From NCBI GenBank assembly GCA_023379515.1, contig JAMCQQ010000207.1, forward strand, positions 1-5,031: a stretch of 5,031 nucleotides of DNA, read 5' to 3'. The stretch's first letter is position 1; the number at the start of each line of letters is the position of its first letter. Below are positions 1 to 2,312 of this stretch, one piece after another. The DNA comes from Actinomycetota bacterium. Lineage in GTDB: Bacteria > Actinomycetota > Humimicrobiia > Humimicrobiales > Humimicrobiaceae. Both the position numbers and the translations under genes were made by a program. The notes under the pieces were generated by a model that had not been told where the DNA came from, did no database searches, and worked only from the letters and a program-made list of their open reading frames with translations.

Positions 1-2312
1 TATAAAAAGGGCGGGTATACCATTATATAATTTTCGCTTTTTTCAAGGCTTTTTGCCATTTCTTTTTGCGCGGAAAGCGAAGGCTGCGCAAACGAATCAT
101 TTAAAAGAAATAATACGTAATCTGCATCCCCAATGCCTAGTGGAATTGTATATATTTTTTCTCTTTGAGAAAGATGGGAGCCTAAGTTGTTTGTTGCGGC
201 AATACTATATTCAATGGGAATTTTACTAATAAACCTTTCGATAGCTTTTCTGTTATCAAGCTGTTTTGCAAACATATCTATATTTGGCCTTTTTGAACCT
301 GCGATAGGACCTATAAAATAAAGTGATATTAAGCTCGATAATAAAATAAAAACAGACAATTTTTCATAATTTAATTTTTTAAAGCGGGAAATTAGGTACT
401 TTAACGAATAAACAGCGGAAATAAAAATAAATGGCGTAATTGATGATGTATATTGATAATATATTTGCCTAAGTTGAACATTGTTACTTAAGAGACTAAT
501 CATCATGTCAGGCAAAACAAAAATTAATATAGCAGGGTTTAAAACAGAAATAAATCCTAAAGGACTTAAGATTTCGAATAAGAAACGCAGTCTCGAAAAC
601 TCAAATACTACGGAAAAAGTTTTTAAGGGATTTAATATGATATTTTGTAATACTTCAAGAGGGGTATTTCCAAATTCGGAATAATAAGAAAGAGCAAAAT
701 GATCGCCTGCTCTAAAAAAAGGAATTATTTTTACAATTAACAGATAAAATAAACTCGCGGAAAATAAAAATATAAACGCCCCAAAGAAAAATTTTTTGAT
801 GTTTATGATCCGTTTATTTTTAAAACTTCTAAGAATAATAAATAAGCCAAAAACAGAAATTATCGCCCAAACATTTTCTTTTGTAATTGCCGAAAGAGTA
901 GCAAAAATTAGAAAATATAAGTACTTCTTTTTTAAAAAAAAGTAATATGTTGCCAAAAGAAAAGTAGTTGCAAAAGCAACGGGATGGAAATCATATAAAT
1001 TTACATATTGAAGAGCAGGATACAAAAGATAAGATATAGACAAAACAAGAGAAATATTTTTATTTTTTAAAATGTTTCTTGCGATTAAATAAATAAATAT
1101 GCTCCCCAAAGATAAAAGTATTGTCTGGAGTAAAAGAAGCATTTTGGGATTTGACCAAATTAGATAAAGAGGGGAAATTAATATTAAGATAAAATCTGCA
1201 TGAAACGAAAGTCTGGATACCGTGTCAATTCCGTTTGGGTCGGTAAGCTGAAATATCCTGCCGTTAATCGTGTTCCAAACGACTTGATCCATATTACCCA
1301 AATCAAATCTCCCCGAGAAGAAATTATCATGCCTTAAAAAACTGGTTGAGGTAAAGTAAATTATGTATATTATTACGAAAGAAACTAATGTAACTTCATA
1401 TTTGTATTTTCTTAAAAAAGTAAGGATAGATAAAAGATATGTGTTTTTGAATTTATTAAGAATATAAATAATTACAAAAAATAACAGCTCCGAAATTATA
1501 AAGATTATCCTTGAAAAAATAGCTATAAGCCCTGCGTTGCCAAGAGAAGTATATTTTAAAAGTCCAAAAGTTACAACAGCCTCTCTGACACCAAGTCCCA
1601 TTGGAGTAAGTACCGATAAATAACCGATAAGTAAAGAAAAAGAAAAAAGGCTTGATAAAATCAATACATTTTTTGGGTTAAGGTAAACTATCGAGGCTGC
1701 AGTAAAATATGTAGCAAGGCCAAAGACAAAGAAAGTTAAAAAAGAAAGTGAATAAAGTTTTAGATTTTCATAAAATCTTAGCTTTGGAATTAATTTAATA
1801 TTGAATTTTTTATTCAAAGAATAAACCGCAATTACCAATATATTAACTATAAGTAGAAATTTTGTTATATTTGGATCGTTTAACTTATGTGAAATATAGA
1901 AAAAAGAAAACGTTAATGCCCCTAGGATGATGAGTATAACTTCATTTAAAAGAGAAGATGCAACGTCTCTTTTTGAAACATTGTTTTTTGAAAAAACTTC
2001 GGCTCTTGATAAAAATGACCAGATATTTCCAGGAGTGTACCTTTTTATTTCTGTAAGCTCCCATAAGTAAATGGTTTTAATTAAATCAAATTTATTACCC
2101 TTTTCTCTTAATAGTTCTCTCCAAAGGGCTCCCCTTATGAAAAAATAAGTAAGCAGTAAAAGTATTCCTATGATAAGCAGAAAAGGGTTAAATTGTTTTA
2201 TTTGAATGAGTAAGCTTGATTGATCGTAGATAAGTTTTCCTATAAAAAGAAGTGAAACAGCAGATAATGGCCAGCCAATTATATATTTTAAAATTGAAAG
2301 TATTTTATTCAT
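1..2312 (-). CDS. Large fused membrane protein: LPG-synthase-TM/UPF0104 flippase-like domain + DUF2079 (putative GT-C glycosyltransferase), 3' end outside the window
   Basis: One minus-strand frame from ATG 2312 stays open to the left edge: 770 codons plus two bases, with no in-frame stop. The start is well fixed, because an in-frame TAA lies two codons upstream (2316-2318). Residues 1-300 resemble the lysylphosphatidylglycerol-synthase TM / UPF0104 family: several hydrophobic helices, RYTPGNIWSFLSRAE (91-105), and the hallmark PMGLGVRE (237-244). From about 305 it matches DUF2079, a GT-C-like family: FDLGNMDQVVW (336-346), His371 in FHADF, YPALQ (431-435), DFHP (441-444), TKEN (477-480) and YQYTSSITPF (619-628). 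After the last helix (about 651-668) comes a likely extracytoplasmic C-terminal part with ATNNLGSHLSQR (706-717), also DUF2079-like. The second part already spans about 465 residues, so little is probably missing. No ATG lies between Met238 and Met341, so the second domain has no start of its own at the junction. Likely role (inferred): handling lipid-linked sugar or lipid in the membrane for envelope modification. The substrate is unknown. Confidence 0.88.
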   Translation of the reverse strand, partial: MNKILSILKYIIGWPLSAVSLLFIGKLIYDQSSLLIQIKQFNPFLLIIGILLLLTYFFIRGALWRELLREKGNKFDLIKTIYLWELTEIKRYTPGNIWSFLSRAEVFSKNNVSKRDVASSLLNEVILIILGALTFSFFYISHKLNDPNITKFLLIVNILVIAVYSLNKKFNIKLIPKLRFYENLKLYSLSFLTFFVFGLATYFTAASIVYLNPKNVLILSSLFSFSLLIGYLSVLTPMGLGVREAVVTFGLLKYTSLGNAGLIAIFSRIIFIISELLFFVIIYILNKFKNTYLLSILTFLRKYKYEVTLVSFVIIYIIYFTSTSFLRHDNFFSGRFDLGNMDQVVWNTINGRIFQLTDPNGIDTVSRLSFHADFILILISPLYLIWSNPKMLLLLQTILLSLGSIFIYLIARNILKNKNISLVLSISYLLYPALQYVNLYDFHPVAFATTFLLATYYFFLKKKYLYFLIFATLSAITKENVWAIISVFGLFIILRSFKNKRIINIKKFFFGAFIFLFSASLFYLLIVKIIPFFRAGDHFALSYYSEFGNTPLEVLQNIILNPLKTFSVVFEFSRLRFLFEILSPLGFISVLNPAILIFVLPDMMISLLSNNVQLRQIYYQYTSSITPFIFISAVYSLKYLISRFKKLNYEKLSVFILLSSLISLYFIGPIAGSKRPNIDMFAKQLDNRKAIERFISKIPIEYSIAATNNLGSHLSQREKIYTIPLGIGDADYVLFLLNDSFAQPSLSAQKEMAKSLEKSENYIMVYPPFL
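2305..2312 (-). promoter_or_regulatory. Start/stop overlap suggesting translational coupling
   Basis: On the minus strand the eight bases ATGAATAA contain both the start codon of the large fusion protein (ATG, 2312-2310) and the TAA stop of the permease (2307-2305). The preceding bases show no Shine-Dalgarno-like purine tract. Overlaps of this kind commonly mean that ribosomes finishing the upstream gene reinitiate on the downstream one. It therefore suggests, but does not prove, that the fusion protein is made in step with the exporter permease. Confidence 0.6.

Follow-up and report, generated by a model that had tools for sequence, protein, structure and literature searches.

The ArnC–ArnE/F–ArnT set is a three-component glycosylation set. 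Three-component systems with a GT-C enzyme have been published (PMC11127046 and PMC7389260, in the available parts of both texts), and GtrA–GtrB–Gtr* and GtcA–GtlA–GtlB share with the relatives of the protein described here, by fold and gene order, the same three parts: an ArnC/GtrB-type GT2, a membrane flippase and a GT-C enzyme. The present flippase differs from theirs in having the MprF/UPF0104 fold, not that of SMR/GtrA or MATE proteins, and in being fused to the GT-C enzyme; moreover, no synthase gene was seen beside the copy studied here. MprF likewise combines an N-terminal flippase fold and a Glu–Arg pair at the gate spacing of RtMprF with fusion of the flippase to an enzyme, which is a cytosolic GNAT-fold aminoacyl-lipid synthase in MprF, whereas here it is a GT-C membrane enzyme. 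Membership in MprF was rejected, as the C-terminal aminoacyl-lipid synthase domain is absent and the C-terminal half is DUF2079/GT-C. The comparison with MprF made in the initial annotation was apt for the fold; in function, three-component (Gtr-type) systems stand closer. Archaeal parallels are haloarchaeal AglD (a glycosyltransferase with C-terminal UPF0104) and the arCOG00899/arCOG00563/arCOG00897 neighbourhood: UPF0104, encoded beside an OST-like enzyme and an AglD-like glycosyltransferase, was predicted to be a flippase in surface glycosylation (PMC5898192, available part); in AglD, UPF0104 is fused to a cytoplasmic glycosyltransferase, in contrast to the GT-C enzyme found here.

The window, i.e. 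the whole 5,031-nt stretch of DNA that was analysed, comes from an uncultured bacterium with a tiny genome and contains the features listed in the table. Homologues of the fusion protein numbered 765 at E ≤ 1e-3 among 7996 scored. P0001, a full-length relative with 99% identity in a record from another source, has a confident AF2 model (pLDDT 93, pTM 0.92), and its high pTM suggests that the two halves are held in a fixed placement. The final four residues at the window edge (PPFL, 3–14) differ from P0001, which runs on KDGDF..., and reflect either variation between strains or an error at the end of the contig. That one known full-length family covers both halves was rejected, the window protein having no NCBIfam match at E ≤ 0.1.

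Table 1 Features of the window, with positions counted from its first nucleotide
Feature	Position	Strand	Basis
Fusion gene: LPG_synthase_TM-type flippase half and DUF2079 GT-C half; single frame read from 2312 down to 3, 770 aa, C-terminus cut by the window end	3..2312	(-)	ORF, Pfam, homologues, AF2 model
N-terminal half, residues 1–288: MprF-type flippase domain	1449..2312	(-)	
PMGLGVRE, residues 237–244, including E244	1581..1604	(-)	E244 in 57/57 fusions; spacing as in RtMprF (PMC8131360, available part)
R268, candidate equivalent of RtMprF Arg304 and partner of E244	1509..1511	(-)	57/57 fusions
C-terminal half, residues 294–770: DUF2079, GT-C glycosyltransferase fold and C-terminal non-membrane domain	3..1433	(-)	
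D337, candidate catalytic residue; invariant Asp that closely follows the first GT-C helix	1302..1304	(-)	120/120 DUF2079 domains
DFHP, residues 441–444	981..992	(-)	H443 in 119/120 DUF2079 domains
K478–E479 of TKEN	876..881	(-)	E479 in 119/120, K478 in 114/120 DUF2079 domains
MacB-like ABC permease, 8-nt overlap with the fusion start	2305..3498	(-)	MacB_PCD and FtsX (Pfam)
ABC transporter ATPase	3503..4180	(-)	Best NCBIfam matches MacB, DarD, LolD, all below cut-offs
Periplasmic-adaptor-type membrane fusion protein, 5′ end beyond the window	4186..5031	(-)	TIGR01730, 107.4 bits vs cut-off 94.9

Both domain assignments of the initial annotation were correct. By structural match of the P0001 model, residues ~1–290 adopt the MprF flippase-domain fold, and DUF2079/GT-C begins at ~294. 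The flippase match spans MprF residues 24–324 only, with nothing seen to correspond to the later membrane subdomain of MprF. At profile level, the window protein scored 29.5 bits with PF03706 (E 6.8e-7; curated cut-off 33.4 bits) and P0001 carries a PF03706.19 annotation; the cut-off was passed by four fusions (L005, 41.8; L006, 54.5; L072, 54.1; L161, 41.6), while among the other fusions scanned P0033 remained below it at 22.7 bits and L004 gave no match. E244 and R268 are kept in all 57 fusions and in 77/78 LPG domains. They are separated by 24 residues, as are Glu280 and Arg304, which form the gate salt bridge of RtMprF, and a glycine stands five residues before E244 as Gly275 does before Glu280 (PMC8131360, available part). 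On spacing and motif, E244/R268 are candidate equivalents of this gate pair.

The window protein matched DUF2079 (PF09852) with 219.8 bits against a cut-off of 28.2, over profile positions 1–441 of 459. A GT-C glycosyltransferase fold, as in the ArnT/STT3/ALG/PMT enzymes, was structurally matched over the whole module (residues ~294–779 of the P0001 model); the module differs from these enzymes in its distinct Pfam family, in its fused flippase and in that a profile of 31 fusions found no match at E ≤ 10 among the sequences of solved structures. Invariant residues are present in both halves of the 31 aligned fusions. Among 120 aligned DUF2079 domains from Patescibacteria and Chloroflexota (L139 omitted), D337 is invariant, and E479, H371 and H443 are each found in 119. 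GT-C enzymes typically conserve an acidic residue just past their first membrane helix. D337 occupies this position and is the candidate catalytic residue. Of the three acidic residues singled out in the initial annotation, D337 is invariant and E479 nearly so, but D342 is not, being Asp in only 44/57 fusions.

Further forms of the family were observed. Residues 402–525 of the L006 fusion weakly match NF046093 (cell surface glycopolymer formation; 28 bits, cut-off 150). A second class of DUF2079 proteins in Patescibacteria, 604–726 aa in length, is devoid of the LPG-TM half; a GT2 of ~230 aa is encoded directly upstream in 10 loci (L057–L060, L065, L068, L077–L079, L082), and the one beside L058, the only one of these loci that was scanned, is AglJ-like. 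Triple fusions, mostly of ~1100 aa, consist of the flippase half, the DUF2079 half and a C-terminal alpha/beta hydrolase of BD-FAE/Peptidase_S9 type, which from the GT-C topology would lie outside the membrane. They occupy 11/57 loci (L161, L162, L163, L165, L166, L168, L171, L173, L174, L191 and L069, the last cut by the contig end), and P0007 and P0033 are also of this type.

The initial annotation had described one continuous reading frame spanning two membrane families and had proposed a search for the same architecture; a single ORF was confirmed, and the fusion proved common to many genomes. In the patescibacterial order of G001 (the genome of L001), 76/82 genomes match the fusion profile and 49/82 contain one frame over the whole model. 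At least 56/286 genomes in a sample of the phylum match the profile and at least 5/286 have the full-length fusion; in Chloroflexota, the phylum of G367 (Thermosporothrix, the genome of L007), at least 73/201 genomes match, with no fusion seen among the candidates scored. The counts for the phylum sample and for Chloroflexota are lower bounds, because at most 3 and 5 candidates per genome, respectively, were scored and adjacency in Chloroflexota was taken from matches at E ≤ 1e-20. Among the named records that carry it are those of Candidatus Levyibacteriota (L001–L003), Parcubacteria (L005) and Kerfeldbacteria (L006). The trees of DUF2079 and of LPG domains, both quickly built, contain long branches and many unresolved forks and were used for grouping only; L139 (duplicate of L008), L009, L064, pieces of ≤300 residues and patescibacterial DUF2079-only rows below 215 bits were omitted from the former, and pieces below ~200 residues from the latter. 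In both, the window protein groups among sequences from the order of G001. No description of this flippase–GT-C fusion was found in the open-access literature searched, nor any paper there on protein glycosylation in Patescibacteria with a glycosyltransferase and a flippase; the name DUF2079 occurred in none of its papers and the accession PF09852 in a single one. In L001, L002, L003, L004 and L008, an apparent DNA polymerase IV-type gene, accompanied in all but L003 by an apparent ATP-cone/restriction-type gene (both named by eye), is found close to the fusion or DUF2079 gene, which reads as synteny with no clear functional link.

Separate genes for the two halves were found in relatives. A gene was counted as directly upstream when located on the same strand with a gap of -170 to 300 nt. 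In at least 10/201 Chloroflexota genomes, an LPG-TM gene is directly upstream of DUF2079, with both genes on one strand and arranged as the halves are in the fusion. A GT2 gene directly precedes LPG-TM in 8/10 of these pairs (L204–L211), with an overlap of 1–4 nt; that of L209 is spread over two short ORFs (139 and 150 aa). L212 has two GT2 genes ~2 kb upstream of the pair, and L203 has no GT2. In the order of G001, the halves are overlapping genes in two genomes (L145, L151) and lie on different contigs in G300. In the LPG tree, a supported branch sets apart a group of 56 fusion LPG halves together with 3 split ones; nesting of the split copies inside the fusions, in a quick tree, suggests later fission. 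Twelve genomes of the order of G001 retain a strong DUF2079 half, while LPG-TM was found neither in its vicinity nor, by PF03706 at E ≤ 1e-4, elsewhere, a count that is tempered because PF03706 is a weak probe here, having also missed known copies in G309, G003, G304 and G362, and because the contigs of G302 and G310 extend less than 700 nt upstream. The flippase half can therefore be lost or replaced.

In 8/57 loci, spread over three regions of the tree (L005/L006; L072; the clade L070/L071/L196/L218/L219), the fusion itself is directly preceded by an overlapping or abutting GT2 gene. The loci L218 and L219 and the fragment L220 were included on account of a GT2 already seen there, and the count without L218 and L219 is 6/55. 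All GT2s tested (L005, L006, L071, L072, L204) matched ArnC (NF007986) and PgfS near full length, below the curated cut-offs, and the L006 GT2 matched solved ArnC chains with E values of 7e-44 to 1e-43. When 4876 locus ORFs were scored against the L005/L006 GT2s, 20 reached ≥200 bits, and in 16 of these cases the next gene downstream is LPG-TM or the fusion (3 of the 16, L218–L220, stem from this biased inclusion); the figure of 16/20 is not a genome-wide frequency, because all loci are centred on LPG-TM or DUF2079 genes. The other four comprise one in L073 that directly follows a DUF2079 gene, and three non-adjacent ORFs. At E ≤ 1e-40, 56/82 genomes of the order of G001 encode an ArnC-type GT2, in most cases at a distance from the fusion: 38/49 genomes with the full fusion and 18/33 others. 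At this threshold it was not found in 11/49 fusion genomes, including G001, G002 and G129 (assemblies of 0.3–1.6 Mb).

Set beside the directly computed fusion, folds, conservation and synthase–flippase–GT-C gene order of the relatives, the reading that we favour, with a probability of roughly 60%, is that one fused protein supplies two parts of a three-component glycosylation system based on polyprenyl-phosphate sugar: its flippase and the glycosyltransferase on the acceptor side. To judge from the relatives, an ArnC/GtrB-type GT2 on the cytoplasmic side would load polyprenyl phosphate with a sugar. With E244–R268 as its gate, the MprF-like half would then move the sugar lipid to the outer leaflet, as its fold and conserved residues suggest, and the DUF2079 half, given its GT-C fold and invariant D337, would pass the sugar on to an external acceptor, be it a glycan, a protein or a lipid. 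No synthase was seen in the window's own neighbourhood, and this mechanism is transferred from the relatives. That a flippase-like core hands a lipid-linked sugar to an outer-face GT-C module had been raised by analogy in the initial annotation; it is now the best-supported reading, because split relatives form synthase–flippase–GT-C operons. The fusion is said to work like a three-component system, by analogy and not as a placed member, because the window has no GT2 upstream of the fusion gene and a GT2 precedes 8/57 fusions and 8/10 Chloroflexota pairs. Points against the three-component reading are the MacB-like permease directly upstream in the window and in 13 other fusion loci, the 32/57 loci with neither MacB nor GT2 in that place, the 11/49 fusion genomes where no ArnC-type GT2 was found, the relatives devoid of the flippase half, G300, whose LPG-TM half remains beside MacB and apart from DUF2079, and the many phospholipids moved by P. 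aeruginosa MprF.

Alternatively, the flippase half could move the acceptor lipid, a glycolipid or phospholipid, which the GT-C half would glycosylate outside with a donor flipped by another protein. The product type of an ArnC/GtrB-type GT2 is a donor lipid, and the position of this enzyme before LPG-TM in the Chloroflexota pairs and before the fusion makes this alternative unlikely. It draws on the ability of MprF-type domains to move phospholipids (PMC8131360, PMC11980842); since P. aeruginosa MprF moves many of these (PMC11980842), the fold does not fix the substrate of the flippase half. GpgF, a UPF0104 protein and predicted flippase, is encoded with glucosaminyl-PG genes (PMC12713373; for all three papers, the available parts), and DUF2079 occurs without LPG-TM in many genomes (phylum sample, order and Chloroflexota), which also speaks for an acceptor lipid.

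A further explanation, confined to the lineage of the window and in our view improbable, is that the fusion serves a MacAB-like export operon, glycosylating or supplying lipid for the exporter cargo, and that the link to an ArnC-type synthase was lost. Genes for an adaptor-type membrane fusion protein, an ABC ATPase and a MacB-like permease are directly upstream in the window. In the 57 loci including the window, the gene directly before the fusion is a MacB homologue in 14 (window, L069, L161, L162, L165–L169, L171, L174, L176–L178; 9/14 with an 8-nt overlap), a GT2 in 8 and another gene in 32, with a contig end in 3, and the lone LPG-TM half of G300 also follows MacB (L150). However, MacB is not directly upstream in 43/57 fusion loci, and apart from the window and the order of G001 no MacB neighbour was seen. 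The export explanation is compatible with the three-component reading, and both can be true.

That the DUF2079 half is a lipid-linked-sugar binding or other module which kept the GT-C fold and is no transferase appears very improbable: a shared fold does not show function, and no functional study of DUF2079 was found in the open-access literature, but the near-complete conservation of D337, E479, H371 and H443 and the GT2 neighbours stand against it. An assembly or frame artefact joining two genes was rejected as having a negligible chance, in view of the same single frame in 49 genomes of one order and outside it (G033, L005, L006), the independent source of the P0001 record, and no sign of an artefact found at the fusion point.

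Within the three-component reading, a more specific arrangement is put forward tentatively, as possible but doubtful. The GT-C module would replace the second MprF membrane subdomain and wall the outer lipid cavity, so that the polyprenyl-phosphate sugar reaches the transferase site directly from the flippase and bypasses the bulk outer leaflet. The C-terminal alpha/beta hydrolase of some lineages (11/57 fusion loci) would then trim or transfer the product outside. If true, this would be, to our knowledge, the first case of a flippase forming part of the very enzyme that uses up the flipped cargo across the membrane.

On the best reading, the finding is more informative than first described: a fused form of the synthase–flippase–GT-C system, with a flippase class different from that of the published scheme. 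Flippases for polyprenyl-phosphate sugars are mostly assigned by context, and direct evidence of flipping was missing for the MATE-type protein of PMC11127046 and for SMR-type ones, according to the available part of that paper. The fusion and the split synthase–flippase–GT-C operons name UPF0104/LPG-TM as a further, structurally understood flippase class in bacteria. As the flippase is covalently joined to a GT-C enzyme, the question of flipping becomes testable with a single protein, and DUF2079, along with part of the patescibacterial cell surface, gains a functional reading.
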